From contig NZ_KI632511.1 in the NCBI RefSeq assembly GCF_000504285.1, positions 3,283,372 to 3,347,371 of the forward strand: a stretch of DNA of 64,000 nt, given 5' to 3'. The translations under genes were made by a program, and so were the position numbers. Positions 13,177 to 33,148 of this stretch are shown one piece after another. Source of the stretch: Actinospica robiniae DSM 44927 (GTDB lineage: Bacteria; Actinomycetota; Actinomycetes; Streptomycetales; Catenulisporaceae). Each line of letters starts with the position of its first letter. The stretch's first letter is position 1. The notes beneath the pieces were generated by a model. It did no database searches and had not been told where the DNA came from. It worked only from the letters and a program-made list of their open reading frames with translations.

Positions 13177-13621
13177 CCAACCACACAGCCTCGTCCGCCG
13201 CGACCCGAAGGAACCAGGAAGAGCCCGACCATCGCGTCGGCACTTCGCCATGCCCTCGAACCCGGCACACCAACCAGCCGACTCAGACCACGAACTCACA
13301 CGCTTGGTGAAAGACGGAGGCTAGACGCCGCCACCGACAAAAGCCGTACATCTGGCTTTTACTGGATAAGGAATATTCCGGATATTTCTGGGGAACTCGG
13401 GCGTGCTCCCCGGCGTTGAAGGACTAGAGAAGAAAACAGCGGCTCAGACGGCGATGCCAGATCTCACATCAGGCGGGGCCGGACCACCGGCCCCTCCGCG
13501 CGGATCGATGATCGAGATGGTCGGATCATGGTGATGCAGGATTCTTCCGGATCGAGCGCGGCCCGGCCACAGGGAGGGACCCGGGCCCGAGCGCCGCTCA
13601 AACCACTCCCCCAGGGGGTGG

Positions 13622-13772
13622 GCTCTCTCCTCGGTCGGGCAGGCGAAGCCCGATCAGGGTTCTGCCGGGAGGTCAAGCGGCGCCATGCATGATTCACCAT
13701 CAGCGCAGGCCGCCGCCGCTTGACCTCCCGGCAGGTTCCTGATTGCCTCCGGGGACCGACTGAGGAGAGAGC
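13622..13772. repeat. 151-bp long hairpin, copy 2 of 4 (right arm of R1)
   Basis: Outer arms GCTCTCTCCTCGG and CTGAGGAGAGAGC (one mismatch); inner arms TGCCGGGAGGTCAAGCGGCG and a perfect complement. It is in inverted orientation relative to copy 1. The loop (ATGCATGATTCACC and onward) is unlike that of copy 1 although the total length is identical. Confidence 0.85.
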
Positions 13773-14097
13773 ACACCCCCGCAACCTCACCACCCCGAAC
13801 AACAGCCCGCCCCGTCACGCCAGCGCCCCACAAACCCCGGCATCTCTCTCCGAGGGAAGGGCCTGCCAGCGGCGCCTTTCGATCTTGAAACCCCAGCCCG
13901 CCCCGCCAACGCAACGGGTGGGTGGGTGGTCAGACGAACCGGGCGACGCGAAGCGGCCGCCCCCACCACGACGACCACCCCGACCCGGCAAGGCACCACG
14001 CCCCAGGAACACTCAGCCGATCATCAATGCGCAGTAAAGCAAAATCCGAGGTCCACTCCGCCGGACGCACTGTCGGGCGGAGATCACTGGACGCTCG

Positions 14098-15660
14098 CTA
14101 TGCGGAGTAGCTGTAGGTGGGTGTCGTGTCCTGGTAGCCCTGGCCGGTGGGCGTGTAGTCGAAGCTGAAACTCACGCTCTGACCCGCCGACAACGAAACC
14201 GGCTGCTGCCACTGCCCCGCCGACGCATTCCACGACATCGCATAGTTCAACTGACTCTGCCCACTGACCGTGTAATGCACATACACCGACGACACCGTGA
14301 ACCCGGACGGCTTGAAGTAGATCTCACCGCCACTCACCCCCTCCGAGAAACCCGAACCCGAAGAACCACCCGTCGCCGAAGCCGAAGCCGAAGGAGTCGG
14401 CGCCGAACTGGTCGGCGGGGGCGGAGACGCCGGGCCGCTGGCGCCTCCGGTCGGGCAGGTGCCGGTGGTGCCGTTGACGAAGATGCACTGCTTGATCGTC
14501 GTTAGGAAGTCACTCAGGATCGTCGGATTGTCCTGGACCGCCGAGTCGCCCCAGTAGCCGTTCGAGCAGCCGGTGCCGCCGGCGGCGTCGCCGTTGCCGC
14601 ACATCCACTGGGTCTGCTGATCCCAGTCGGTGTTGATGTAGGACACCACGCGGATCACGTCGCTGTTGTTCTCGATCCACTGGAAGTACGGCGCGTACCA
14701 CTGATTCCAGATGCTCTGAGCCGTGGTGCTCTGCGGGTTCTAGTTCATGATGCAGCTCTGGGTGAGGTTCGCGTTGCTGTACCCCTGCGGCGCGGACTCG
14801 GCGATCATGGCCGGCTTGTCATGCACACGGGCGAAAGTCAGCACCGTGTTCTGCAGGCTCACCGGGTCGACGCTGTAGCTGCTGCAGCCCCACTGCTCCC
14901 CTTCGGAGCCGGAGTTGTAGAAGTCCGAGAGCGCGACGTAGTCGACGTACTGGTCGCCGGGGTACCACTCGTTGAGGTGGTTCGGGTCGGTGACGATGTA
15001 GTCGTACTGCGGGTCGGAGGTGTCGGTGTCGATCGGCCACGCGGCGCTCTGCCAGACCGTGGCGACGTTCGTGGCGCCGAGCGCGTCTATCTGCTCCTTG
15101 ATGTACTGGAACGCCGAGATGTAGTAGCCCGAGTTGTAGCAGTTCCAGGGACCGTCGAACTCGTACCCGATGCGCAGGTACGTGGGTCGGTTCCAGGCCT
15201 TGAGCTGGTTGATCATCTTGGTCAGGTCACTGCGATACTGGCTGGTCATGGCCGCGGTGATGTCGGAGCCCGGGCCGCCGAGCAGGGCGCGCAGCGGCTG
15301 GTTGGTGCAGCCGGAGCCGGAATCGGACAGGTCGAGGCCGGCCGAGAGCGCGGCGTTCGGGTACTGGCTGAGGGTCTGCTGGAAGTTCACGTTCCCCGCG
15401 CCCCAGTTCGCGGTGGAGAACATGCCGGCGAGCGCGGACGGGTTCCCGCCTTCGATCAGGTTGGTGTACAGGGTGATCCCGCCGGGGCCGGGCGCGGCGA
15501 GCGAGGGGTTGTCGAGCACAGAGCTCTGATACGCGGACAGGGTGTCGCTGTCCTGGCCCACGACCATCAGGATCTTGCCGTTCGCCGGCAGGTCGCGGGC
15601 GGTGAGGGTGGCGCCGTCGAAGGCCGTCGCCGCCGCGGCGTGCGCCGGATGACCAGCCAA
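14098..15660 (-). pseudogene. Secreted GH26-like glycoside hydrolase with C-terminal CBM, broken
   Basis: The frame runs from 15660 to 14098 but is cut by a TAG at 14742-14740, after SCIMN. The protein continues in frame after it (NPQSTTAQSIWNQWYAPYFQW), so a single substitution, for example CAG to TAG, explains it. The catalytic part has YLRIGYEFDGPWN and PAMIAESAPQG, placing acid/base and nucleophile Glu as in clan GH-A, most like GH26 (mannanase/xylanase type). A Ser/Pro/Thr linker leads to a beta-rich C-terminal domain of CBM56-like appearance. The N-terminus (TTG, AGHPAHAAAAT) is only the tail of a signal peptide: the rest is lost at a junction with the sugar permease at 15672. Confidence 0.75.
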
Positions 15661-18920: not shown

Positions 18921-20441
18921 TCAGCCGCTCGTGCAGCTCGCTCCGTTCAGAGCGAAGTTGGTCGGGGCGGCGGTGTTGCCGGTGTGGTTGGCCTGGAACC
19001 CGAAGCTGGTGGTCGCGCCGGGGGCGATGGTCCCGTTGTAGCTGAGGTTCGCCGCCGACACGGAACCGGAGCTCGGGGAGATCGTGGCGTTCCACGCGTT
19101 GGTGATCGTCTGGCCGGACGCCAGGGTGAAGGTCAGCTTCCAGCCGTTGATCGTGCTCGTGCCGGTGTTCTTGACGGTGATCTGCTCGGTCAGGCCGGTG
19201 TTCCAGGCGCTGACCACATCAGAGACCGAACACGTCCCGGCCGCGCCGGAGGTGGGCGGAGCACTGCTCGGCGGGGCGCTGCTCGGCGGCGCGGAGCTGG
19301 GCGGGGTGGTCGGCGGCGGGGTCACCGAGGTGCCGCCGAGGGCGTTGACCACGGCGGTGTACGCGGGCTTGGGCTGGTAGTTCTGGTCGAACATGGTCGC
19401 GGCGCCCTGGCCGGAGAAGGTGCCGGGCACCCACGAGTCGGCGTCGCCCACGCCCCACTGGCTCACGCCGACGCAGCGCGTCACGCCGAGGCAGTCCTTG
19501 ACCACGTTGGCGAAGTCCGTGGCCTGCTGTTGCAGGTTGGCCGAGGTGGCCGGCAGGGTGATCCGGTCGTCGAGCTCGGTGACGGCGACGTCCAGGCCGA
19601 GGCTGGCGAAACGCTGCATGTTCGCCTGCATGTCCGAGGGGACCTGGCCCAGGATGAAGTGGCTCTCGAAGCCGATTCCATTGAGCGGCACGCCCTGCGA
19701 GAGCAGCGACTGGGCCAGCGAGTACATCGCGTTGCTCTTCGCGTTCTCGCCCTCGATGTTGTAGTCGTTGAGGTAGAGCTTCGCGTTCGGGTCGGCCGCG
19801 TGCGCGGTGCGCAGCGCGTCGGCGATGTAGCCCACGCCCATGGCGTTGTAGAAGGCGTCCGAGACGTACGAGCCGTCGCCGTTGAACGGCTCGTTGACCA
19901 CGTCCCAGCTGTAGACCTCGCCCTTGTAGTGGGTGACCTCGGTGGTGATGTGGGCTTCCATCGCGGCCTGCACCTGGGTGCTGGGCAGGCTGGAGACCCA
20001 CGAGGGCAGCTGGCTCTGCCAGACCAGGTTGTGGCCGCGCACCTTCATGCCGTGGGCCTGGGCGTAGGAGACGATCTGGTCGCCGGGGCCGAAGTTGTAG
20101 GAGCCGTTCGAGGGCTCGGTGGTGTCCCACTTCATCTCGTTGCCGGGGGTCACCATGTTGAACTGGGCGTTGGCGACGGCGGTCAGGGCGGAGTTGCTCA
20201 GGTTGCTCTGGGTCAGCGCGGTGCCGAAGTAGCGGCCGCCCTGGGCCGCGGCGAGGGAGCCGAGCGAGGTGGCGGCGTTGGCCGGGCCGGCCGCGGACAG
20301 CAGGGTCGCCCCGGCCGCGAGCACGACCGCGGTGACGGCGCCGGCCGCGGCCGTCAGCCGGCGGGAGTGCCAGGGCAGGGGCTCCGCGGCCGTGGCCGGG
20401 GTAGTGGTCCGGCCGGGCCGGGCGTGGGGGTCGGAGCGCAT
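18921..20441 (-). CDS. Secreted GH10 endo-1,4-beta-xylanase with CBM2
   Basis: The enzyme cleaves internal beta-1,4 bonds of xylan outside the cell. A long actinobacterial signal peptide ends at GPANAA. The GH10 barrel carries MKWDTTEPSNG, the HNLVWQSQLP loop, the acid/base Glu in WDVVNEPFNG and the nucleophile in VTELDDR. A linker of three PPSSA repeats leads to a CBM2 with the paired CxS...ASCTSG cysteines and NGWKLTF and ITNAWNA motifs. I start at ATG 20441 behind GGAAGGACACC rather than at 20510. About 506 residues, intact, and the best preserved enzyme of this degradation region. Confidence 0.92.
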   Translation of the reverse strand: MRSDPHARPGRTTTPATAAEPLPWHSRRLTAAAGAVTAVVLAAGATLLSAAGPANAATSLGSLAAAQGGRYFGTALTQSNLSNSALTAVANAQFNMVTPGNEMKWDTTEPSNGSYNFGPGDQIVSYAQAHGMKVRGHNLVWQSQLPSWVSSLPSTQVQAAMEAHITTEVTHYKGEVYSWDVVNEPFNGDGSYVSDAFYNAMGVGYIADALRTAHAADPNAKLYLNDYNIEGENAKSNAMYSLAQSLLSQGVPLNGIGFESHFILGQVPSDMQANMQRFASLGLDVAVTELDDRITLPATSANLQQQATDFANVVKDCLGVTRCVGVSQWGVGDADSWVPGTFSGQGAATMFDQNYQPKPAYTAVVNALGGTSVTPPPTTPPSSAPPSSAPPSSAPPTSGAAGTCSVSDVVSAWNTGLTEQITVKNTGTSTINGWKLTFTLASGQTITNAWNATISPSSGSVSAANLSYNGTIAPGATTSFGFQANHTGNTAAPTNFALNGASCTSG

Positions 20442-20921
20442 GAACCGGTGTCCTTCCGAGGTTTCGCGCAAGGGAATGTTTCGAAGCCTGATGCGGGCTC
20501 CGTCGAGCATTGCGGACGCTAAGCAGGGCTCGTCACGGCGTCAAGCGGCAGCTCATGGAAGTGGAAGCGTTGCAGTTGGGATATGAAAACTTTCATATCG
20601 CGGTCCTCGCGTGGCCCTGGTTTCGGCCTACCGGCGCCGTGGTCGGGCCGTGCCCGGGCGCCCCGCCGCGGACCGGTTCGACGCCGTCCGCCGGGCGGCC
20701 CGGATGATCAGGACCGCGCGATCCCTTTACGTTTCCTAACTTTTCCTTGTTTTCTCCACGCTACTACCAGTGCTATCTCAGCATGCATCGAACCTTGACA
20801 ACTTCGCAGGGCAGTTCTAGGGTACGCGACGCAATCGTTTGCGCTCTGCGCGCCACCCCACCGATCGCCGGAATCCGCGCACGTAGCGGCTTCCGCCTTC
20901 TCTCCGAAGGACGTGACCCCC
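20442..20921. other. Divergent intergenic region between two secreted hydrolases
   Basis: 480 bases without a convincing gene. It holds the promoters of the GH10 gene (minus) and the GH-A/ricin gene (plus), an AT-rich stretch with a perfect dyad at 20580-20599, and another AT-rich segment around 20720-20770 likely to contain the rightward promoter. Confidence 0.6.
20580..20599. promoter_or_regulatory. Palindromic operator, GATATGAAA-N2-TTTCATATC
   Basis: A perfect 9-bp dyad with a two-base centre, about 140 bases upstream of the xylanase start. The GAAA-N2-TTTC core resembles the CGAA/TTCG-type elements reported for xylan-inducible genes in Streptomyces and the general LacI/ROK operator form. 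It is the obvious candidate for substrate-dependent repression. Confidence 0.6.
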
Positions 20922-22655
20922 ATGCGAATACCCAAGGCGACGGCGCCCGGGCTCGCACTCCTGCTCGCCGCGGGATTCCTCGCGCCGGGCGCGCTCACCC
21001 CGGCATCCGCGGCATCCTCGTCCAACACCCTCGTGGTCAACGCGAGCACCAACCTGCGCTCGGTCACCCATGTGGCCTCCGGCGCGCTCTACGGCCTGTC
21101 CGCGAACGGCACGCCGTCCGCGGCCGATGTCAATCCCCTGCATCCCAGCAGCTTCGTCCAGATGGCCCCCGGCGGGAAGCAGCTGCCCAACGGCGAGCCC
21201 GCGCCCGCCGGTGACGCGCTGGTCGTGGCCCCCGAGGCGGCCGCGGCCGGCGCCAAGGTCATCGTGCGGATGCCCGACTGGTACCCGAACTTCCCGTACA
21301 AGTGGGTGAGCTGGTCCGACTGGCTCTCCGCGATCGACAAGCAGGTCGCCTCGGTCAAGTCCTCGGGCGCGAGCAACATCCAGGCCATGGAGATCTGGAA
21401 CGAGCCGGACTGGACCTGGAACACCTCGGCCGCCGGCAGTTTCAACGCCGGCTGGGTCGAGTCGTACCAGGAGATCCGCAAGAACGACTCGAGCATCCCG
21501 ATCGACGGGCCGAGCTACTCGGCCTGGAACCAGAGCTCGATGTCCTCGTTCCTGAGCTACGCCAAGGCGAACAACGCCCTTCCGCAGTACCTGAGCTGGC
21601 ACGAGCTGCAGGGCCAGCAGAACATCGTCGCCGACGTGGCCGCGTGCGTGGCGCTGGAGAAGAGCCTCGGCATCAGCCCCCTGCCGATCGTGATCGAGGA
21701 GTACGCCACCACCAGCGAGGCCGGCGTGCCCGGCCCGCTGGCCGGCTACATCGCGAAGTTCGAGCGGGCCGGCGTGTACGAGGCCGATCTCGCCTTCTGG
21801 AACCAGTACGGCACCATGGGCGACACGCTCACCGGCACCGGCGGCGCGCAGAACGCGGCCTGGTGGCTGTATGACTGGTACGGCCAGATGAGCGGCGAGA
21901 TGGTCTCCACCGTTCCGCCGGCGCAGACCGGCATCGACGGAGCCGCCTCGGTCAACTCCGCCCGCAACCAGGTCAACGTGATCTTCGGCGGCGGCAGCGG
22001 CTCGGCCGCGGTCACCGTCAACGGGCTGAGCAGCCTGTCCGGCTTCAGCGGCACCGCGCACGCGGTGCTCGAACAGGTCGTCTCGGCCGGCCGGACCACG
22101 GCCTCGCTCGGGCCGCAGACGGTCTCCGTGGGCGATTACACCATCTCCAACGGATCGATCACCGTGCCGGTCAACTCGATGAACGCGTCGAACGGCTACC
22201 AGCTCATCGTGACTCCGACACCGTCCACGCTGTCCGGCACGTTCAAGCTGCAGAACGTCAACAGCGGCCTGGTGCTCGGCATCAGCGGCGCCTCGACCGC
22301 GTCGGGGGCCGGCGCGCTGCAGTGGACTGACAACGGCACCGCCGACCACGAGTGGAAGCTGGTCAGCCAGGGCAGCGACAAGTACAAGATCGTGAACGTG
22401 AACAGCGGCCTGGTCCTAGGCATCACGAACGCCTCCACGGCCGCCGGTGCCGACGCGTTGCAATGGACTGACAACGGTACCGCTGATCACCTGTGGTACA
22501 TCAACCCGGTCGGCAACGGCGAGTATCAAATCGTCAATGCCAACAGCGGTTTGGCTCTCGGCATCGCCAACGCCTCGACCACGTCCGGCGCCTTGGCGCT
22601 GCAATGGAACGACAACGGCACCTCAGACCATCTGTGGAAGCTCGTGAGCTCCTGA
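20922..22655 (+). CDS. Secreted clan GH-A glycoside hydrolase with C-terminal ricin (CBM13-like) domain
   Basis: A signal peptide (RIPKATAPGLALLLAAG to PASAAS) is followed by a barrel of about 400 residues with WNEP in MEIWNEPDWTWN as acid/base and IVIEEYATT as nucleophile candidate, a GH39/GH5-like arrangement. Three near-identical QxW-type units at the C-terminus (NVNSGLVLGI...LQWTDNGTADHxW) form a beta-trefoil carbohydrate-binding module. I choose ATG 20922 since GAAGGA lies 10 bases upstream; GTG 20913 is too close. The exact family and substrate are uncertain; xylan- or galactan-derived chains are plausible from the neighbour. Confidence 0.82.
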   Translation: MRIPKATAPGLALLLAAGFLAPGALTPASAASSSNTLVVNASTNLRSVTHVASGALYGLSANGTPSAADVNPLHPSSFVQMAPGGKQLPNGEPAPAGDALVVAPEAAAAGAKVIVRMPDWYPNFPYKWVSWSDWLSAIDKQVASVKSSGASNIQAMEIWNEPDWTWNTSAAGSFNAGWVESYQEIRKNDSSIPIDGPSYSAWNQSSMSSFLSYAKANNALPQYLSWHELQGQQNIVADVAACVALEKSLGISPLPIVIEEYATTSEAGVPGPLAGYIAKFERAGVYEADLAFWNQYGTMGDTLTGTGGAQNAAWWLYDWYGQMSGEMVSTVPPAQTGIDGAASVNSARNQVNVIFGGGSGSAAVTVNGLSSLSGFSGTAHAVLEQVVSAGRTTASLGPQTVSVGDYTISNGSITVPVNSMNASNGYQLIVTPTPSTLSGTFKLQNVNSGLVLGISGASTASGAGALQWTDNGTADHEWKLVSQGSDKYKIVNVNSGLVLGITNASTAAGADALQWTDNGTADHLWYINPVGNGEYQIVNANSGLALGIANASTTSGALALQWNDNGTSDHLWKLVSS

Positions 22656-24528: not shown

Positions 24529-24978
24529 ATGTCCAGCTCCGCCGCGTCCCTCGCGTTCCTGTCCCGCCGTCCGGTGTGGCAGGTCGCGTACCTCGCCGGG
24601 CTCGCCGCGAGCGTCGTCGTCGAGGTGTGGGGGCTGGCCGCGCGCCTGGCCGACGTGCCGATGCGCGCGGCCGGCTTCGGCTCGCATCAGGCCTCGACGA
24701 TCACTGTCGGCATGTTAGCGATGGGGACGATGGTGGTGACGTTCTGGTTCACCTTCGTCGTGATCGCACTGGCCCGCTTCGCTCGCGACCCTGCCCGGAT
24801 CTACCTCGGCCTGACGCTGCCGCTGCTCGCGCTCTCACTCCTCGTGCCGCTGACGGCCCAGGATACGGCGGTCTCCACCAAGCTGGTCCTCGCCGCCGCT
24901 CACCTGATCGCCGGAGCCGTGGTCATCCCGATCGTGGCGCGGCGGCTCGCGGCCGGGAAGTCGGCGGTGGTGAGGTAG
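24529..24978 (+). CDS. DUF6069-like four-helix membrane protein
   Basis: The 149-residue product shows four hydrophobic segments: VAYLAGLAASVVVEVWGLAAR, STITVGMLAMGTMVVTFWFTFVV, IYLGLTLPLLALSLLVPL and LVLAAAHLIAGAVVIPIV. The charged loop ALARFARDPARI and the length match the DUF6069 family. ATG 24529 is preferred because GAGGAGGAACCC precedes it. It diverges from the ECF42 operon and its 3' end overlaps the convergent ligase gene by 79 bases. Function unknown. Confidence 0.65.
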   Translation: MSSSAASLAFLSRRPVWQVAYLAGLAASVVVEVWGLAARLADVPMRAAGFGSHQASTITVGMLAMGTMVVTFWFTFVVIALARFARDPARIYLGLTLPLLALSLLVPLTAQDTAVSTKLVLAAAHLIAGAVVIPIVARRLAAGKSAVVR

Positions 24979-27098
24979 CTGCCGGTGCGCTGGCTGTCGC
25001 TCTGCTCGATGAGCCGGGCGAGGGCAGCCACCGCGTCGGGGACGGGGGTGAGATGGCCCGCCGCCTGCTCCTGGCGCAGCCAGTCGGAGACCTTGGCGGA
25101 CCACGAGCCCGGGGCCGCCTCGGTGGCGAGCTGCGTTTCGCCGAGCCCGATCTCCAGCAGCCCGGGGTGGAAGCTGAAGACCGCGACACCGTAGCGGCGG
25201 GTCTCGGCGGCGAGGTTCTCGGTCAGCTTGATCAGCGCCGCCTTCGACACCGAGTACGCGGACAGGTGCGGCCACTGCGCGACGCCCGCGTGGCTGACGA
25301 TGTTGACGATCCGGCCCTGCCGACGCTGCGTCATCACCGGCAGCACGGCGCTGCAGGCGAGCGCGGCGCTGCGCAGGTTCACCGTGATCGCCGCCCACCA
25401 CTGGTCCGGGTCGATCTTCCACAGCTCTCCGACGGGTCCCTGCACGCCGGCGTTGTTCACCAGCGTGCCGACGGGTCCGAACTCTGCTTCGGTGCGGCAC
25501 AGCACCGCCTCGAACGCGCCCGGCTCGGCGAGGTCGGCGGGAACGGAGAGGACGTCGCCGCCGAGTGCGCGCAGTTCCTCCTCGGCCCGGGCGAGCCGGT
25601 CGGAGCCACGCGCGGTCAGGACGACGCGGTGGCCGCGGCGGACGAGTTCCTCGGCGGCCGCGCGTCCGAAGCCGCGGCTGCCGCCGGTGACGACGGTGAC
25701 GGGCGCGCCGTTCCTCGTCGCAAGCCTGTGCCGCAGGACCTTTCCGCCCGAGTTGCGAGGAAGGGCCGCGACGAATTCGATCGCTCGGACCTTCTTATAG
25801 GGTGCGACGCGTTCGGCCACGTAGGCCAGCAGTTCCGCTCCGTCGGCGCCGGACGCGACGACGAAGGCTTTGGGCACCTCGCCGTAGCGCTCGTCCGGTA
25901 CGCCGACCACTGCCGCGTCGATCACGTCAGGGTGCTGCGCCAGTACGGCTTCGAGCTCGCCCGGCGCGACCTGATTGCCGTTGCACTTGATCAGCTCTTT
26001 GATGCGTCCGACGATCCGGTAGCCGCCGTCGACCGCTCGCTCGACCACGTCGCCGGTCGGCAGCCAGCCCTCCTGCACGAAATCCGGGCTGGACATCCAC
26101 AGCTCGCCCGGCTCGCCCGGATCCGCCTCCCGGCCGGTCGCATGATCCACCAGGCGGCAGCGGATACCGGGCAGCGGCAGCCCGATCGAGCCGGGCTCGG
26201 GCCGGGCGTCGTCGGGGACGGTATGGGTGGCGCCGCCCGCCTCGGTCATGCCGTAGTTCTCCACGATCCGCACGCCGAGCCGGGTCGCGGCGTGCTCGGC
26301 GAGGTCCGCTCCGAGCGGGGATCCGGCCGAGACGATCGCGCGCAGGCCGGCCAGCTCGCGATGGCGCGGGTGGTCGGCGAGCCTGCGCAGGATGGTGGGG
26401 ACGAGATAGAGGAGCGTGGCCCGGTGGCGCACGATCGCGTCGATCATCAGATCGAGGTCGAAGCGGGCGAGGGTGAGCACGCTCGCTCCGGCACGCAGAG
26501 CCGGGTGCAGCGCCGACTGGACGCCGTAGACGTGTGAGAGCGCGACGGCGCAGAAGACGACGTCGTCGGCCTCGACCCGGTGGACGGCCTCGAGGCGGGC
26601 GAGCGCGCCGATGAGGCTGCGGTGCGGCAGAGAGACGGGCTTGGGCGTGCCCGTGGTGCCGCTCGACATGAACACCATCGCCGGCGCGTCACCGTCCGCC
26701 CCGTCCGCCCCGTCTGACGAGCGCGATGGGGCCGGGCCGCACACGGCGGCCTCGATGGCGCCCGGCGGCTCGCAGATCAGCAGACCGGCGCCGGTCTGCA
26801 CCATCGCCGAGCCGGTCTCGGGCTCGGTCGTCAGGGCATTGAGTGAGACGGCCACCGCGCCCAGGCTCAGGATCGCGTGCTGGACGAGGGGCAGCTGCGG
26901 CCCGTTGGGCATGCGCACGGCCGCGGCCATGCCGGGTCTCAGGCCTTGATGACGCAGAACCTGGGCGATCTCCTCGATCCGCGCGGGGATCCGGCCGAAG
27001 GTGATCGCCTCGCCGGTCGCGGCGTCGACGACGGCGGGCTTGTCCCCGTATTCGGCCGCTCGGCCCAGGACGTAATCCGTCAGGAGGCTGCCACTCAT
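24900..27098 (-). CDS. Acyl-CoA/AMP ligase fused to short-chain dehydrogenase
   Basis: A 732-residue bifunctional protein. Residues 1-500 form an ANL adenylating enzyme: MVFMSSGTTGTPKPVSLPH (A3), VENYGMTEAGG (A5), WLPTGDV, GRIKELIKCNGNQVAPGELE (A8) and PRNSGGKVLR with the A10 lysine. Without any carrier-protein domain it passes straight into a classical SDR: VTGGSRGFGRAAAEEL for NAD(P), NNAG, the catalytic Ser in NIVSHAG and YSVSK. The ATG overlaps the previous stop (ATGA), so it is coupled to the chorismate-lyase-like fusion. I infer activation of an aromatic acid and a redox step on the product; the layout recalls a carboxylate reductase without its T domain. Confidence 0.85.
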   Translation of the reverse strand: MSGSLLTDYVLGRAAEYGDKPAVVDAATGEAITFGRIPARIEEIAQVLRHQGLRPGMAAAVRMPNGPQLPLVQHAILSLGAVAVSLNALTTEPETGSAMVQTGAGLLICEPPGAIEAAVCGPAPSRSSDGADGADGDAPAMVFMSSGTTGTPKPVSLPHRSLIGALARLEAVHRVEADDVVFCAVALSHVYGVQSALHPALRAGASVLTLARFDLDLMIDAIVRHRATLLYLVPTILRRLADHPRHRELAGLRAIVSAGSPLGADLAEHAATRLGVRIVENYGMTEAGGATHTVPDDARPEPGSIGLPLPGIRCRLVDHATGREADPGEPGELWMSSPDFVQEGWLPTGDVVERAVDGGYRIVGRIKELIKCNGNQVAPGELEAVLAQHPDVIDAAVVGVPDERYGEVPKAFVVASGADGAELLAYVAERVAPYKKVRAIEFVAALPRNSGGKVLRHRLATRNGAPVTVVTGGSRGFGRAAAEELVRRGHRVVLTARGSDRLARAEEELRALGGDVLSVPADLAEPGAFEAVLCRTEAEFGPVGTLVNNAGVQGPVGELWKIDPDQWWAAITVNLRSAALACSAVLPVMTQRRQGRIVNIVSHAGVAQWPHLSAYSVSKAALIKLTENLAAETRRYGVAVFSFHPGLLEIGLGETQLATEAAPGSWSAKVSDWLRQEQAAGHLTPVPDAVAALARLIEQSDSQRTGSYLTTADFPAASRRATIGMTTAPAIR

Positions 27099-29359
27099 GC
27101 GTACACCTCGCCGAGCAGAGCGTTGGCCGGGTCGCGCGGGTCGGCGCTCGTGAAGTAGCGCAGCGCGAACTCCGACCACTTCCCGGTATCGACCCGGTCG
27201 CCGCCGCTGAGCGTGGACAGGAACGTCACGGCGTGGTGCCGGGGCACTCCGGTCGCGGCCATGAAGGAGACGAAGCCGGAGGATTCGATCTCCCCGTCGC
27301 CGCACACGTCCGCCAACGCCACGGCGGTGTCCACCTCGGCCTTGACCAGGGTGCGGAAGTGTTCTGCGTGCGCGGTCCGCAGCGCCTGCGCGGCACTGAC
27401 GAACTGCTGCCTGCTGAGTCTGTCGCTGCCGCCGACCCGCTCTGCGAGCGAGGTCCACAGGTGAAGCTGGGCGCTGAGCGCGGCACAGACCTTGGGCGAG
27501 CTGTCGGAAAGCAGGAACGTGGAGGCGAGTTCGATGATGAACCGTTCGAGGTCGGCGCGGCTGATCCAGCCGTCTCCGTCGGTGTCGTAGAGATCGAAAC
27601 GCCGGCCCCATTTGCGTCGCGTCACATCAGGCTCCTGCATCGTCGACGCGGGTGGGGCGGCCGCAGGGCTCGTAGTCGTCGCGGCGGCCTGCGCGAAGCC
27701 GATCGCGAGGTCGACGGTGTGCAGGACGCATTCGAGCGCTCGCAAGGAGCGCTCGTCACCGCCGACGTCTTCGGCGGCGGCTTCCAGATGCAGGCCGCCG
27801 GGACGCATGCCCGCCGCGGCGTGCACGTCGAAGAACGCTGTGATCCCCGCCTGGGTGTCGCCGAGGGGATCGCAGATCCATGCCACCGGGTGTCCCGACT
27901 TCGCGACGGCCTCGAGCAGCCCGGGCAGCTTCGTCCGCAGCCGGTCGGCGCTCATCCGGGCGATCAAGGCGAGCTTGCCGGGCGTGCGCGCGGGGTTGAG
28001 GCGCGCGCACAGGCCGAGGAGCTGTTCTGATGTGGCGTCGTCGCCGACCTCGACGGAGACGGGGTTCGCGATCGACGCGGCGAACGCGATGTGCGCACCG
28101 TCGAGTTCGCGGGCATGCTCGCCGATCGCCGGCAGATGCCCGGAGGAGGCGAATACGCCCGCGGCCGGATCCGTGCGGGTCAGGGCGTATTCGTAGTCGA
28201 GGACGCGTACATCGTGCGAGACGAACGTGCGCGGCCATCCGGATCCGGGCACGGCGAACCGCGTCGCGAAGGCCGCCTGCGCGAGCGCGGCCTCTGCGCG
28301 CGGATGGCGCCCGGGCAGCTGCCCGAGACGCTCCTGCATCCGGTCCACCAGCCGCGTGTCAGCTGCCTGATCGGCATTGTGCAGCGCGTTGAGGAGGCTC
28401 GCAGTGTGCAGATACGCCTCGAACATACCCTCGAGTCGGGCACCTGCGATGCGGTTCACAGCCGCGACCGGCACGCCGAGGCCGCGGTTCGCGGTCGCGG
28501 CCAGCAGCCGGATCAGGGCGTGCCGGTCCTGCACATCCTGCTGCGTACAGCGGTCGAACCTCTTCGCACGGTCGCCGACCTGGATCACGAAGCCCTGTCC
28601 GGTCGCGGCAAGCGCCGTCAGCTCGGAGAGGGAGCGGCAGTCCGCAGCCGACACCGGCCCCGGCATGGTGCCGAGCCGCGCCCGTCGGATCTCCGCATCC
28701 TGAGAACCGGGCCGACGCGGCACCGACACGGCGGCAGGCCTGCGCCGTGCGCCGTCGTCGCGGGCGGGCACGGCGACCGGATCGGCGGTGGCCGCGGAAA
28801 CCAGCGCCGGGTTGAACAGCTCCCGCAGATACACCAGCGGCTCGTCGCCGTGGCAGATCAGATAGACCTTCACCGCCGCCCAGCGTCCGCTCGGCCCCTC
28901 CGGCCAACGGGCCAGTCCGGTCACGAGCTGCTCGCGCCGGTGTTCGACCCGCTGGCGGGCCAGTTCCGGGCCGATGCCGTGGTCGGTGCCGGACACGATC
29001 CTGCCGACCTGGGTCTCCGGGGTGTGCAGCGCGACCACGTGGTTGAGCGAGACCAGACGCGAGCGTCCGTCCACCAGGGCCGAGCATCGGTTGAGGACCG
29101 GCACTGCGCCGTCGAGACGGAGCGCCGTACGGATCGGTTCGGGCACCTCGGCGGAACCGGCGACCGCCTGGTGGAGCACCTGCAGGTGCAGCGGGCCCAC
29201 CACGGCTTCCAGCAGACGGGTCGTCGAGCCGTCGGAGCTCAGCAGCATCCGGGTGGCCGGGTCGAGAAAGGCGTGGTGGCTCACCGCGTGGACGGTGTCG
29301 GCGGAGTCCGGCGGACAGGCCCCGGCGCCGTTCATGTCAGGAATCGGATAAAGCTTCAC
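27095..29359 (-). CDS. Three-domain fusion: chorismate-lyase-like, DAHP-synthase-II-like, EF-hand
   Basis: Residues 30-190 resemble chorismate pyruvate-lyase/DUF98 (GAVPVLNRCSALVDGRSRLV, then VYLICHGDEPLVYLRELFNP). Residues 232-535 are a class II DAHP synthase by PGPVSAADCRSLSELTALA, VNRIAGARLE, DYEYALTRTDPAAG, GHLPAIGEHARELDGAHIAF, NPVSVEVGDDATSEQLL, LIARMSADRLRTKLPGL and WICDPLGDT. The metal ligands are mostly gone: QVGDR has Arg for the Cys of QGGDC, the His of CDPMHGNT is missing, GLHLE keeps its Glu, and the final CDPRLN region is absent; synthase activity is unlikely. Residues 583-740 are calerythrin-like with one canonical EF loop, DTDGDGWISRAD. Start GTG 29359 or ATG 29335. It lies between an MFS gene and the ligase/SDR gene. 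Role inferred: aromatic acid supply for a small product. Confidence 0.75.
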   Translation of the reverse strand: MKLYPIPDMNGAGACPPDSADTVHAVSHHAFLDPATRMLLSSDGSTTRLLEAVVGPLHLQVLHQAVAGSAEVPEPIRTALRLDGAVPVLNRCSALVDGRSRLVSLNHVVALHTPETQVGRIVSGTDHGIGPELARQRVEHRREQLVTGLARWPEGPSGRWAAVKVYLICHGDEPLVYLRELFNPALVSAATADPVAVPARDDGARRRPAAVSVPRRPGSQDAEIRRARLGTMPGPVSAADCRSLSELTALAATGQGFVIQVGDRAKRFDRCTQQDVQDRHALIRLLAATANRGLGVPVAAVNRIAGARLEGMFEAYLHTASLLNALHNADQAADTRLVDRMQERLGQLPGRHPRAEAALAQAAFATRFAVPGSGWPRTFVSHDVRVLDYEYALTRTDPAAGVFASSGHLPAIGEHARELDGAHIAFAASIANPVSVEVGDDATSEQLLGLCARLNPARTPGKLALIARMSADRLRTKLPGLLEAVAKSGHPVAWICDPLGDTQAGITAFFDVHAAAGMRPGGLHLEAAAEDVGGDERSLRALECVLHTVDLAIGFAQAAATTTSPAAAPPASTMQEPDVTRRKWGRRFDLYDTDGDGWISRADLERFIIELASTFLLSDSSPKVCAALSAQLHLWTSLAERVGGSDRLSRQQFVSAAQALRTAHAEHFRTLVKAEVDTAVALADVCGDGEIESSGFVSFMAATGVPRHHAVTFLSTLSGGDRVDTGKWSEFALRYFTSADPRDPANALLGEVYA

Positions 29360-29387
29360 AGGCTATACATTAGCCTCATGAAGCAGT

Positions 29388-30797
29388 TTACTGTGCAAAC
29401 ATCCCCATTTCGGACACATCACCACCGGGTACCGGCTCCGGCCGGCTTTCGGGCCCGTTGCGCAGGGCGAGCGCGATCGGCACGCCCAGGACGCACAGCG
29501 CGCTGCAGCCGAACCAGATCGCGACGTACGTACTCTGCGTCGGCACGCCCGGGCGCAGCAGGAACGAGTCGAGCAGCGCCGCTCCGGCCGCGCCCGTCGC
29601 CGCGCCGGCCAGGGTCTTGAGCGTGTTGTAGACGCCGGTGCCGATGCCGGTCTGATCCGCCGGCAGACGGTGCATCAGCAGCCCTGGCAGCAGGCTGAGC
29701 CCGAGGCCGGCGCCGAAGCCGGTGACCGCGCTGGGGGCGATGAACGCGCCCGCGCTGCCGTGGCGCAGCGCGATACCCAGGTAGCCAGCCGCGCTCAGAG
29801 CGAAGCCGCACGTCAGGACGGCGCGGCCGCCGAAGCGGCGGGCCAGCCGGTGCGCGGCGAGGGCGCCGATCATCGCGCCGAGCACCGCCGGGAGCGAGAG
29901 CAGCCCGAGCAGCTGGTCGTCGGCGGCCAGTCCGTAGCCGGTCGATGCCGGTTTGGCCGCCTCGAAGGACAGTGTCGGGGACTGCGAGCCGTAGAGCGCG
30001 CAGCCGAGCAGGAAGCTGAGGCCGAAGACCGGTGCCGTCGACCGGCGGGCGAGCATGCGCACGTCCACCGTCGGGGAGTCGGCCGTCAGCTCCTGCCGGA
30101 CGAAGAGTGCGAGCAGCACCGCCGCACCCGCCAGCAGCGCTCCCGTCATCAGGGCGCCGTAGTGCGAACCGACGCTGCTGAACCCGCCGAAGAGCAGGCC
30201 GAGGCCGAGGCTGAGCAGGGCCGCGCCGGACCAGTCCACCCGCCCGAGCGCGCGGGTGGTCGACTCCGGGACGCGGCGCCAGACCACGAGCAGCGCCAGC
30301 GCGGGCAGCGCGGCCAGGATCCACAGGCCCGGACGCAGCGCCGCGCCGACGATCGTGCCCAGCGTCAGCGAGCCGACCAGCGGGCCGACGGCGCGCCCGC
30401 CGCGATCCTCGCCGAGCCGGTCCCGCAGCAGGGCGAGCTCGAGCGGCAGCCAGCAGCTGAGCACGCCGGCCAGCGCCTGGCCGACCAGCAGCAGCGCGAG
30501 GCCGGTCGCGGCGGCGGAGAGCAGGTACCCGACGCAGGCGATCGCGAGCGTCGCGAGCAGCAGCCGACGGTGGCCGAACAGATCGCCGAGCCGGGAGGAG
30601 ACCGGGACGGTGATGCCGGAGACGAGGTAGTTCACCCCGAGCACGATGGCCTGGTCGCCCGCGCCGAAGTGCAGGGTGCGGCCGAGATCCGGGAGCAGGA
30701 CCGGGAAGGCGCCCTGCAGCGTGCCGCTGAAGAACTCGACCACCACGAGGAAGCGGACGAGCGCGGCGCCGGCGTTCGGCGGGGCAAGACGTGGCAT
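29388..30797 (-). CDS. MFS transporter (DHA2-like drug/metabolite efflux)
   Basis: About 469 residues and 13-14 hydrophobic segments. The loop between helices 2 and 3 has the MFS signature as SRLGDLFGHRRLLLATL, and motif C-like glycine-rich helices occur. ATG 30797 follows GGAAGTGCCC; the GTG at 30803 is inside that site. It is the first gene of an operon with the fusion gene 28 bases later and the ligase/SDR gene, so it most likely exports their product or protects against it. Confidence 0.85.
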   Translation of the reverse strand: MPRLAPPNAGAALVRFLVVVEFFSGTLQGAFPVLLPDLGRTLHFGAGDQAIVLGVNYLVSGITVPVSSRLGDLFGHRRLLLATLAIACVGYLLSAAATGLALLLVGQALAGVLSCWLPLELALLRDRLGEDRGGRAVGPLVGSLTLGTIVGAALRPGLWILAALPALALLVVWRRVPESTTRALGRVDWSGAALLSLGLGLLFGGFSSVGSHYGALMTGALLAGAAVLLALFVRQELTADSPTVDVRMLARRSTAPVFGLSFLLGCALYGSQSPTLSFEAAKPASTGYGLAADDQLLGLLSLPAVLGAMIGALAAHRLARRFGGRAVLTCGFALSAAGYLGIALRHGSAGAFIAPSAVTGFGAGLGLSLLPGLLMHRLPADQTGIGTGVYNTLKTLAGAATGAAGAALLDSFLLRPGVPTQSTYVAIWFGCSALCVLGVPIALALRNGPESRPEPVPGGDVSEMGMFAQ

Positions 30798-30880
30798 GGG
30801 CACTTCCGGTCGGGTCTGCGGATCGCGGGAGGTGAAGTGCGAGAAAGGATCGCCGCCGGGGGAAACGATGCGCTATCGTC

Positions 30881-30925
30881 GCACGAATCCGCCGGGAAGC
30901 CCGCCTGCACGCAAGGATCAGCCAT
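30881..30925 (+). promoter_or_regulatory. 45-bp conserved block before the Lrp gene
   Basis: GCACGAATCCGCCG, a 13-base spacer, then CACGCAAGGATCAGCCAT running into the start codon of the Lrp-type gene. The same two blocks with the same spacing occur at 33242-33286 near the divergent M20/GT2 promoters (32 of 32 block bases match except one). It is a candidate Lrp operator, or a duplicated promoter fragment. Confidence 0.55.
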
Positions 30926-32105
30926 GATCGACGAACTCGACCTCGCCCTCGTCGACGCGCTGCGGGTGGACCCGCGCGCGCCCTGGTCCAAGCTGGCCGG
31001 CCCGCTCGGCGTGGACCAGGCCACCCTGTCCCGGCGCTGGGGCCGGCTGTCCGCGGACGGCGACGCCTGGGTGACCTGCTACCCCTCGGCCGAGCGGATG
31101 GGCATCGGGCTGACCGCGCTGGTGTGTGTGGAGTGCCAGGCGGGCTCGGTCGGGTCGGTGGCCGAGACGCTGGCCGGCGACGCCCGCACGCCGACCGTGG
31201 AGGTCGTCAGCGGCGACGCGGACCTGCTGATCACCGTGGCGGCGCTGGAACCGGGCCAGGTCACGGCGTACGTCCTGGAGCGGATCGGCCGCGTCCCGGG
31301 CGTGCTGCGCACCCGTACGGCCTTCGTCGAGCGGCTGGTCCGGGAGGGCAGCACGTGGCATGAGGGGGCGTTGGACGCGGCTCAGCGCCGCGCCATCAGC
31401 GGCGAGGCGCCCTCGGTCCGTCCGGCCGAGCCGCCGCTGCGCGACGTGATGGCCGATCGGGCCCTGATGCAGGCGCTCGGCGCGGACGGCCGGATGAGCT
31501 TCGCGGAACTGGCCAAGCACACGGACATGCCGGAGTCGACGGTCCGGCGGCGGGTCGGCGACCTGCGCCGCTCCGGCCGCCTCGTGCTGCGCTGCGACGC
31601 GAGCCCGCGGCTGAGCGGCCAGTCCGTGAGCACGACGCTCTGGCTGGACGTGCCCGCGCCGGACGAATCCACGGCGGCGGGTTGGTTCGCCGAGCAGCCG
31701 GCCACCCGGATGTGCGCGATGACGGCAGGTTCCCGGGCCAACGTGGTGGCGAATGTGATGACGCATCGGATCGGCGACGCGCGGCAGGTCGAGGCGGCGC
31801 TGGCGCGCCGCGTGCCGGCCGCGCGCGTGCTCGACCGGCAGCTGACCCTGCGGACGGTGAAGCTGGTCGGCCACCTCCTCGACGCGCAGGGCCGCGCCCA
31901 CGGCTACGTGCCGATCGATCCGTGGGAAGACAACGATCAGGACACGGACGCGGCTCAGCCGCGGGCGAGCCTGCCGATCGCCAGACCCGCGAGCAGCGCC
32001 GCGCCGTCGCCGACGACCGCGTCGTCGAAGAGCGCCTCCGGCGCGTGGTTGAAGGCGGCCGTGAACGGATCGCGGTCCGCCGGGCAGGCGCCGAGCATCA
32101 CGTAG
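30924..32105 (+). CDS. Lrp/AsnC-type regulator, duplicated HTH form
   Basis: Residues 1-60 carry the first AsnC HTH (IDELDLALVDALRVDPRAPWSKLAGPLGVDQATLSRRWGRL, quoted as motif positions only by its ends) and a RAM-like domain follows; a second HTH lies at about 180-230 (SFAELAKHTDMPESTVRRRV). This tandem form is common in actinobacteria. It is divergent from the MFS-fusion-ligase operon and is its most likely regulator. Typical length is about 330 residues; the last 50 residues (from 31955) are antisense to the M20 gene and have no family look, so an ancestral stop may have been lost. Confidence 0.82.
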   Translation: MIDELDLALVDALRVDPRAPWSKLAGPLGVDQATLSRRWGRLSADGDAWVTCYPSAERMGIGLTALVCVECQAGSVGSVAETLAGDARTPTVEVVSGDADLLITVAALEPGQVTAYVLERIGRVPGVLRTRTAFVERLVREGSTWHEGALDAAQRRAISGEAPSVRPAEPPLRDVMADRALMQALGADGRMSFAELAKHTDMPESTVRRRVGDLRRSGRLVLRCDASPRLSGQSVSTTLWLDVPAPDESTAAGWFAEQPATRMCAMTAGSRANVVANVMTHRIGDARQVEAALARRVPAARVLDRQLTLRTVKLVGHLLDAQGRAHGYVPIDPWEDNDQDTDAAQPRASLPIARPASSAAPSPTTASSKSASGAWLKAAVNGSRSAGQAPSIT

Positions 32106-33148
32106 GCGGAGGGGACGAGGGCGCCGAGGACGCCGAAGTCCTCCGAGCCGGCGATGGCGTGGGGCATCTCGACGTAGCGCCCCTCCCCCAGCACCTGCTC
32201 CACCGTGCCGGCCGCGAACGCGCTCTCGGCGGCGTCGTTGACCGTGACCGGGTATCCGTACTCGAACTCAGCGTCGACGGCGAGCCCGTGCGTCGCCGCG
32301 ACGCCGCGCACCACCCGCACCGACTCCTCAGCGACCACGGCGCGGGACTGCGGCGAGAAGGAACGGACCGTCGCCGCGAAAGAGGCGGACTGCGGGATGA
32401 CGTTCTCGACGGTGCCCGCGTGCAGGGTGCCGACGGTCAGCACCACTGGGTCGAACGCGTCGAAGCGGCGGGTCACCATGGTCTGCAGGGCGAGTACGGC
32501 CTCGCAGATCGCGGGCACCGGGTCGAGCGCGAGTTGCGGGCTCGAGCCGTGACCGCCTCGGCCGTTGAAGGTCACCCGCAGCGAGTCGGCCGCGGCCATG
32601 ATCGGTCCCGGCCGTCCGGCGACCCAGCCCTGCGGCAGCAGCGCCGAGCCCACGTGCAGGGCGTAGGCGGCGACGACGCGCTCGCCCGCGGCGTCGAGAA
32701 CCCCTTCATCGATCATGATCTGCGCCCCGCCGCCGCCCTCCTCGCCGGGCTGGAACATGAAGACGACCGACCCGGCCAGCTCCGCCTTGCGCTCGGCCAG
32801 CAGCCGCGCGGCACCGACCAGAGCGGCAACGTGCAGGTCGTGGCCGCAGGCGTGCATCGCGCCGGGAACGGTCGAGGCGTACGGCAGGCCGCTCGTCTCC
32901 TGCACCGGCAGCGCGTCCATGTCCGCGCGCAGCAGTACGGCCGGCCCGGGCCGGTCGCCGCGCAGCACGGCGGTGACGCTGCTCAGCTGCTGCCCGAGCG
33001 TCACCTCCAGCCCGAGCCCGTCGAGCGCCTTCAGGACACGGGCCTGGGTCGCGGGCAGGTGCAGGCCGATCTCCGGCTCCCGGTGGATCTCCCGGCGCAG
33101 CGCGGCCAGTTCCGGCTGGAGCGCGGCGGCGGATTCGGCGAGGGTCAT
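31955..33148 (-). CDS. M20-family N-acyl-amino-acid amidohydrolase
   Basis: A 397-residue metallopeptidase of the hippurate/IAA-amino-acid hydrolase group. The dinuclear site is read in LRADMDALPVQE, MHACGHDLHVA, PGEEGGGGA, HVGS and AGSEDFG. It removes acyl groups from N-acyl amino acids in the cytoplasm; no signal peptide is seen. The gene converges on the Lrp gene and overlaps its 3' end by 151 bases. A conserved 45-bp block shared with the lrp promoter lies about 100 bases upstream, suggesting common regulation. Confidence 0.88.
   Translation of the reverse strand: MTLAESAAALQPELAALRREIHREPEIGLHLPATQARVLKALDGLGLEVTLGQQLSSVTAVLRGDRPGPAVLLRADMDALPVQETSGLPYASTVPGAMHACGHDLHVAALVGAARLLAERKAELAGSVVFMFQPGEEGGGGAQIMIDEGVLDAAGERVVAAYALHVGSALLPQGWVAGRPGPIMAAADSLRVTFNGRGGHGSSPQLALDPVPAICEAVLALQTMVTRRFDAFDPVVLTVGTLHAGTVENVIPQSASFAATVRSFSPQSRAVVAEESVRVVRGVAATHGLAVDAEFEYGYPVTVNDAAESAFAAGTVEQVLGEGRYVEMPHAIAGSEDFGVLGALVPSAYVMLGACPADRDPFTAAFNHAPEALFDDAVVGDGAALLAGLAIGRLARG

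Follow-up and report, generated by a model that had tools for sequence, protein, structure and literature searches.

Introduction

The described systems closest to the locus reported here concern either the formation of 4-hydroxybenzoate or the reduction of activated acids. Purified XimC is reported to convert chorismate to 4-hydroxybenzoate (PMC4053376). In grixazone biosynthesis, the GriC/GriD pair, likened here by description only, is reported to activate an acid and then reduce it (PMC10179220). The reductase domains reported for nonribosomal peptide synthetases and polyketide synthases (PKSs) are extended short-chain dehydrogenases/reductases (SDRs) (PMC12783407). The SDR Acr1 is reported to convert acyl-CoA to aldehyde (PMC11948995) and therefore sets a precedent for an SDR outside the carboxylic acid reductase (CAR) family that acts on an activated acid. 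Here, we describe a two-gene locus of Actinospica robiniae DSM 44927 (genome of 9.9 Mb, one contig) that appears to combine such activities. It lies in a stretch of 64,000 nucleotides of contig NZ_KI632511.1 (positions 3,283,372 to 3,347,371 of the forward strand), which was analysed as a whole and is called the window below. We read the locus as an operon that would make, activate, and probably reduce 4-hydroxybenzoate, and from sequence we give this reading as a whole a probability of roughly 0.5. Nothing like this gene set was found in print in the open-licence literature, outside of which most subscription papers lie.

The two genes and their domains are as follows.

27095..29359, minus strand: three-domain fusion gene (open frame without stops, translation, Pfam)
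28799..29242, minus strand: predicted chorismate lyase domain, Rv2949c-like/XimC type, residues 40-187 (PF01947, conserved columns)
27740..28666, minus strand: domain like class II 3-deoxy-D-arabino-heptulosonate 7-phosphate (DAHP) synthase, about residues 232-540, with a degenerate metal site (PF01474 at 188.6 bits, alignment)
27095..27613, minus strand: calerythrin-like EF-hand domain, residues 583-754, with a single canonical loop left (Pfam, alignment)
24900..27098, minus strand: ligase-SDR fusion gene, 732 aa (ATGA overlap with the three-domain fusion gene)
25713..27098, minus strand: adenylate-forming ligase domain, residues 1-462 (AMP-binding at 234.8 bits, AMP-binding_C at 72.6 bits)
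24900..25712, minus strand: classical SDR domain, residues 463-732 (adh_short at 162.1 bits)

The initial annotation, made from the letters of the window, had placed the first three domains in one protein and had coupled the two genes by an ATGA. Both statements hold: the open frame of 754 aa carries all three Pfam matches, and at 27095-27098 the stop of the triple-fusion gene overlaps the start of the ligase-SDR gene. The length of 754 aa applies if translation starts at GTG 29359; it is 746 aa from ATG 29335. The triple fusion occurred once only in the genomes and records searched. Two loci from metagenome-assembled genomes (L031 and L032), raised by a whole-protein match in the genome-contig scan, were rejected as fusions, as they hold ordinary class II DAHP synthases.

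A Predicted Chorismate Lyase Related to XimC

The N-terminal domain very likely functions as a chorismate lyase, as judged from its family. Scored alone, the domain matches PF01947 (Rv2949c-like chorismate lyase) at residues 40-187 with 24.7 bits, above the cut-off of 22; within the whole 754-aa protein the match falls to 20.5 bits, below that cut-off. Five of seven members of the lyase family match the same model. Among solved structures, profile A2, built from seven lyase relatives, detects 2nwi (E 1.5e-8), which we take to be a DUF98-type protein. The same profile finds in one genome, at 214 kb, a second, weaker match (E 1.1e-7) that is ximC by position and size. The gene order around this match fits ximA-E, with called sizes of 514, 295, 203, 473, and 124 aa against reported sizes of 520, 313, 196, 473, and 124 aa (PMC4053376). 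An alignment of 36 lyase domains, which takes in XimC and the window domain, has Glu180, Arg142, Gly130, and Pro184 in every row; Arg91 is found in 35 rows, and the remaining one has a gap there. The Arg91 and Glu180 columns presumably correspond to the catalytic pair of UbiC. XimC itself departs at columns that are otherwise conserved, e.g., Arg37, Ser93, and Asn106. A fold model of the domain from its single sequence reached a mean pLDDT of 38, too poor for a fold search. At E 1e-6 or better, profile A2 matches 27/391 genomes in a sample of the order and 11/306 in a sample of the class, the own genome included in both; the two samples share some genomes.

Gene Company of the Lyase Relatives

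Besides the window, 34 lyase loci of 5.5 to 31.6 kb were compared (L042-L047, L088-L107, and L148-L155). The XimC locus (L156) was kept outside this count, and weak lyase matches in G480, G281, G175, and G1019 as well as second places in G147 and G679 were left out beforehand. To detect neighbours, the called proteins were compared with ten labelled queries by BLAST (E 1e-15). Genes in unannotated loci were called with our own script and their starts may be off, while the names halogenase-like, glycosyltransferase-like, ACP-like (acyl carrier protein), and transposase-like, as well as the adenylation-type label in L127, were given by eye from sequence. Because several loci are close relatives, the counts are not independent events.

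A PobA-like (4-hydroxybenzoate-hydroxylase-like) gene occurs in 15/34 loci, and six of eight FAD neighbours compared with NCBIfam best fit 4-hydroxybenzoate 3-monooxygenase, two of them above the subfamily cut-off. In three loci (L090, L094, and L096), ligase and SDR genes follow directly behind the lyase as separate genes; the window's two genes thus encode these three activities as well, with two of the three in a fusion. Between the window and these sets, identity is 31-33% for the ligases and 38-39% for the SDRs, and we infer that the three genomes, members of the order, are Streptomyces. The initial annotation had read the operon as leading from chorismate to a hydroxybenzoate, followed by activation and a redox step. 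The family link to XimC, the PobA-like neighbours (15/34), and the three-gene sets (3/34) support this order of events, and the lyase, ligase, and SDR probably act in a common pathway. A conserved neighbourhood with ligase and exporter had also been expected among homologues; its ligase part, together with the SDR, recurs in 3/34 lyase loci, and its exporter part does not.

Further gene sets were observed around the lyases. An AMP-binding-like gene paired with an aldehyde-dehydrogenase-like gene is present in 6/34 loci (L093, L107, L148, and L152-L154), all six of which also carry a DAHP synthase. The pair resembles an acid-reductase pair, and by Pfam its aldehyde-dehydrogenase member scores above cut-off in both L093 and L153. 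These six loci stand out as candidate hydroxybenzaldehyde clusters, and one FAD monooxygenase type is common to 5/6 of them. In L043, L045, L088, and L089, dTDP-glucose genes and a glycosyltransferase-like gene accompany the lyase and a DAHP synthase, the last two being fused in L043. L045, L088, and L089 also encode a terpene-cyclase-like protein, which is Prenyltrans/squalene-hopene cyclase by Pfam in L045 only. Finally, a lyase, a PobA-like hydroxylase, and a UbiA-like prenyltransferase meet in L092, L095, L099, L102, L105, and L155 (Pfam UbiA checked in L102; no NCBIfam match for the two prenyltransferases scanned). These are possibly prenylated dihydroxybenzoate pathways.

A Ligase Joined to a Classical SDR

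The 24900-27098 product matches AMP-binding, AMP-binding_C, and adh_short, in that order. At E up to 1, no PP-binding match, and thus no carrier domain, was found in it, nor was there a match to NAD_binding_4 (extended SDR). These Pfam results agree with the earlier description of a ligase fused directly to an SDR without a carrier. Among the hallmarks of CARs, the adenylation domain is present, and the carrier domain and extended-SDR reductase are absent.

At E 1e-40 or better, the window SDR has relatives in 12/391 genomes of the order, the own genome included, and in the class sample in 1/345, which is the own genome. In all 11 other order loci, the SDR adjoins ligase genes or PKS or ketosynthase (KS)-ACP genes (by eye only in L127). 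Three of the 11 are the lyase-ligase-SDR operons of L090, L094, and L096. A ligase gene stands beside the SDR in L122 (Pfam), and in L127 its neighbour is the terminal part of an adenylation-type protein (by eye); in L123, a ligase-headed PKS adjoins it, in L125 it is part of a ligase-SDR fusion, and in L128 and L129 it lies beside KS and ACP genes. In two near-alike loci (L124:9336-13235 and L126:9897-13796), the SDR forms the C-terminus of a modular PKS with the Pfam order DH (dehydratase), KR (ketoreductase), ACP, SDR. The last module therefore already has a ketoreductase, and the terminal classical SDR is a possible unusual release domain.

The window SDR might reduce an activated carboxyl group, an assignment that we hold at slightly less than an even chance from these associations. 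Alternatively, but rather improbably, the SDR is a ketone reductase, the ligase loads an acid other than the lyase product, and the keto substrate comes from a ketosynthase encoded elsewhere. The position of the L128 and L129 SDRs next to KS and ACP genes suits this alternative, as do the names of two of the four best solved SDR relatives, a 3-oxoacyl-ACP reductase (a ketone reductase) and a hydroxypropyl-CoM dehydrogenase (an alcohol dehydrogenase). Moreover, the profile detects no lyase in 8/11 other SDR loci or in the Streptomyces clavuligerus locus described below; with a lyase in only 3/11, the SDR must serve other pathways too. However, inspection by eye showed no KS or ACP gene next to the window's cassette or within the 20-kb stretches L090, L094, and L096, and the KR already present in the last module of L124 and L126 also argues against a ketone-reducing role.

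Carboxyl reduction, if correct, would allow a bolder combination: the ligase-SDR fusion would be a carboxylic acid reductase that has a classical SDR and needs no carrier domain, the SDR subfamily would be a so far unnamed module for reductive release, acting at the end of modular PKSs and in lyase-ligase-SDR operons as well, and the window lyase would depend on the dead DAHP synthase for activity or assembly. Taken jointly, these proposals are doubtful.

A Degenerate DAHP Synthase Within the Fusion

The second domain of the first gene matches DAHP_synth_2 (PF01474) with 188.6 bits, up to residue 532, and its best solved match is 6bmc (E 1.1e-38), presumably of the phenazine/PhzC type. The equivalog TIGR01358 gives 194.8 bits against a cut-off of 614.7. 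For a comparison of residues, 14 other class II DAHP synthases and domains were aligned; a fifteenth, L051, was compared by eye, as a motif filter had missed its gene. Where the comparison set reads QxG(D/A)C, the window domain reads QVGDR, with Arg in place of Cys. The (K/Q)PRS loop is lost, and IGEHAR stands in place of (I/V)GERT(R/N), which is IGARTC in L051. The His found in every comparison sequence in DPxH(G/A)N is absent from the corresponding CDPLGDT, after which about 15 residues are deleted, and the terminal CD(P/L)RLN stretch is gone; the Glu of HLE is retained. L051 keeps GDCAE, KPRS, HGN, and CDPRLN by eye. If, as we take from AroG, the metal ligands of class II DAHP synthases are Cys, His, Glu, and Asp, the window domain retains one of the four, the Glu.

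The loss of metal ligands noted in the initial annotation is thus confirmed residue by residue, and the domain has very probably lost catalysis while keeping its frame and codon bias. That it still catalyses the reaction through an altered site is highly improbable: overall homology is strong and one ligand Glu is retained, but the metal-site Cys and His, the terminal Asp stretch, and the KPRS loop are absent, and the TIGR01358 score is far from its cut-off. More plausible, although still unlikely, is that the whole gene is decaying, such that the lyase alone remains in use and selection no longer maintains the DAHP-synthase and EF-hand parts. Key residues are lost in both C-terminal modules, a stretch is deleted, and the genome encodes one other class II DAHP synthase, which is full-length over the model (687 bits). 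Against decay, all 754 codons are open and G+C at third codon positions (GC3) is 0.82-0.95 in every 60-codon block, a weak argument since GC3 decays slowly; the ATGA coupling to the second gene is also intact.

A class II DAHP synthase accompanies the lyase in 11/34 loci, fused in L042 and L043 and as a separate gene in L045, L088, L089, L093, L107, L148, L152, L153, and L154. From these occurrences, DAHP synthase is a recurrent partner of the lyase family; the partner in the window has become a pseudo-enzyme. The fusion of a domain for chorismate-pathway supply to a chorismate-using enzyme is a natural pairing. For the dead domain, a structural role is more likely than a sensory one.

Calcium Loops, Exporter, and Flanking Genes

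The C-terminal domain of the first gene matches EF-hand_7 at residues 583-611 (35.2 bits). Homology to 3aka spans most of the domain (E 3.2e-9), and homology to calerythrin, 1nya, spans 130 residues (E 8.7e-9). Its first loop, DTDGDGWISRAD, is canonical. The DTDGDGAVTVAD loop of 3aka aligns with the stretch DVCGDGEIESSG of the window domain; at this second calcium loop, Cys and Gly occupy two positions that normally provide ligands in EF loops, and no motif can be recognised in the last loop. Several canonical loops, as expected of a calcium sensor, are therefore not seen in the window domain, which has one; an EF-hand protein encoded in L125 has three. That gene directly follows the L125 ligase-SDR fusion in the opposite orientation, and its product is 29% identical to the window domain over 128 residues; this adjacency, a single case, may come from chance. 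In the initial annotation, the domain was described as calerythrin-like, which stands, and calcium was proposed as a modulator, an idea that is weak because only one loop is canonical.

Upstream of the two genes lie a major facilitator superfamily (MFS) transporter gene and its partners.

29336..29387, minus strand: gap of 52 bases, from MFS stop to ATG start (AT-rich, read by eye)
29388..30803 (alternative 30797), minus strand: MFS transporter gene, a neighbour probably outside the cassette
30924..32105, plus strand: double AsnC-type regulator, MFS partner (PF13404, two stretches; open-frame end, true end may be earlier)
31955..33148, minus strand: M20 family hydrolase, MFS partner (PF01546 at 126.3 bits)

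The MFS stop lies 52 bases upstream of the ATG start of the fusion gene, on the same strand. A TAATGT hexamer was seen by eye 7 bases ahead of GTG 29359, in an AT-rich stretch, and 29336..29387 is a possible separate, leaderless promoter; a strict scan, strict sigma-70 included, gave no promoter or terminator. At E 1e-50, MFS relatives were found in 5/60 genomes of relatives, the own genome included, and in 5/5 loci the MFS gene occurs together with an AsnC-type regulator and an M20 hydrolase. Both same-genus genomes encode the MFS protein at 74% identity and give no match to the lyase profile or the SDR. In G002, one of the two, Pfam gives no match for the gene that follows the MFS gene, and no lyase was found in that gene or elsewhere in the stretch; in the second genome, the contig stops within the MFS gene or immediately behind it. 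Because AsnC and M20 genes are present in all five loci and the same-genus MFS genes occur without lyase or SDR, the transporter is best assigned to that company, and the MFS gene probably belongs to a separate AsnC/M20 cassette. No relative of it was found in the 20-kb stretches around the L090, L094, and L096 sets, and the exporter was accordingly set aside as an unlikely pathway member, although it could share a transcript with the lyase gene in this strain. The initial annotation was thus right that an MFS exporter precedes both genes and, by its company, probably wrong to count it in the operon.

These observations bear on a further alternative, in which lyase, ligase, SDR, and exporter form one operon, with the pseudo-DAHP synthase as a sensor or scaffold and the EF-hand domain as the link between the protein and calcium. 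A dead DAHP-synthase domain beside an intact-looking lyase site, the one canonical EF loop that remains, and the three-loop EF-hand gene adjoining the L125 fusion on the opposite strand would all fit. Nevertheless, this alternative is improbable, as kin of the exporter travel with AsnC and M20 genes in every locus compared, two of the three 3aka-type calcium loops are degenerate, and L125 is a single case.

Elsewhere in the window, transposase-like genes were noted by eye at 10082-11302, 11821-13176, and 52533-54113; the surrounding stretch may therefore hold mobile elements. A secreted xylanase-like gene and a divergent secreted glycosidase-like gene occupy 18921-22655, also by eye.

A Putative Route Through 4-Hydroxybenzoate

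Our preferred reading, the two-gene operon, would proceed in three steps. First, the N-terminal domain of the first gene would split chorismate into 4-hydroxybenzoate and pyruvate, a step suggested by its family, one member of which has been assayed in print. Second, the ligase of the second gene would adenylate 4-hydroxybenzoate and then either form a CoA thioester or hold the adenylate. Third, and least certain, the fused SDR would use NAD(P)H to convert the activated carboxyl group to 4-hydroxybenzaldehyde or the alcohol. The DAHP-synthase domain would derive from a precursor-supply enzyme and, presumably no longer binding metal as active enzymes do, would most likely serve as an oligomerisation or docking part. 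The EF-hand domain appears mostly worn out, and the upstream MFS gene would stand outside the operon, in the AsnC/M20 cassette.

Several results weigh against this reading. The NCBIfam chorismate lyase equivalog NF037993 gives the lyase domain 19 bits against a cut-off of 175; as the model is named for a cyanobacterial branch, this shortfall leaves membership of the wider family possible. No relation of the domain to E. coli UbiC was detectable (hhalign probability 0.4%). In a tree of 27 lyase domains, there is no supported clade for the window with L090, L094, and L096, nor for the three fused forms; since the tree gives no support for placing the window lyase nearest those three, the lyase-ligase-SDR cassette may have formed more than once. 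The ligase-SDR set is absent from 31/34 lyase loci, and the scarcity of lyases around the SDR relatives points the same way. The searches made yielded no known reaction for the SDR subfamily, ketone reduction being equally possible by this measure, and reductase activity on aryl-AMP or aryl-CoA is beyond what sequence can establish. For the AMP-binding-like/aldehyde-dehydrogenase-like pair, the AMP-binding match is above the Pfam cut-off in L153 and below it in L093, and NCBIfam names neither protein. Lastly, with a single occurrence of the triple fusion, there is no measure of how well the dead domain is conserved.

With these points considered, the lyase, ligase, and SDR set appears to be a small, so far unexplored pathway for the activation, and perhaps the reduction, of 4-hydroxybenzoate. 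The separate-gene relatives suggest which of the fused parts cooperate (lyase, ligase, and SDR) and which was recruited (DAHP synthase); judged by its relatives, the exporter probably does not belong to the pathway. If the SDR subfamily releases or reduces activated acids, genome mining restricted to extended SDRs would miss a class of aldehyde- or alcohol-forming assembly lines and small operons. Furthermore, a dead first-step shikimate enzyme fused to a chorismate consumer would offer a clean test case for the retention of pseudo-enzymes.

Comparison With Described Systems

XimC and the window lyase belong to one family by profile (E 1.1e-7) and have the Arg91, Gly130, Arg142, Glu180, and Pro184 columns in common. 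XimC is reported as a free-standing protein of 196 aa from a prenyl-benzopyran cluster (PMC4053376), whereas the window lyase is fused to two further domains. The class II DAHP synthases 6bmc and 2b7o have a homologous domain in the window that differs in having deleted stretches and in having lost the metal site and the erythrose-phosphate loop, as these residues are commonly assigned. Similarly, 3aka/3akb and calerythrin 1nya share EF-hand homology with the window domain, in which two of the three 3aka-type loops are degenerate.

For the first two domains, the same order is found in the lyase-DAHP synthase fusions of Embleya sp. NBC_00888 (L042; 35.6% identity over query residues 31-532) and Streptomyces sp. 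NBC_00354 (L043, WP_328623530; 31.6% identity over query residues 32-532). A recurrence of the domain order in other genomes, which the initial annotation had proposed to look for, thus extends to this pair, and the full triple fusion was seen nowhere else in the genomes and records searched. In contrast to the window, both proteins retain QxGDCAE, PRS, HGN, and the terminal RLN, lack the EF-hand, and have different neighbours: a halogenase-like gene (by eye) in L042, and rfbA, rfbB, and aroC (annotation) with a glycosyltransferase-like gene (by eye) in L043. They are themselves divergent in places, with GCWAGQYAQPRS in L042 and SDPMHGNG in L043, and full activity of their DAHP synthases is for this reason not certain.

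The second gene likewise has counterparts. On plasmid pCLA1 of Streptomyces clavuligerus (L108), plasmid tblastn revealed two ligase-SDR fusions, at 345-2957 and 11893-14274, with the domain order of the window; the SDR of one copy is 47% identical to that of the window. Unlike the window, this locus has no lyase by profile; among its nearby genes are one of thioester-reductase type (PF07993) and one that looks ACP-like by eye. The fusion of L125 (7476-10490, genome G550) also has the order of the window, no carrier domain by Pfam, and an SDR of 43% identity, but its locus has no lyase by profile. CARs, with their A-T-R architecture, resemble the proposed reading in that an acid would be activated and then reduced; the window fusion differs from them in having no carrier domain and in carrying a classical instead of an extended SDR.

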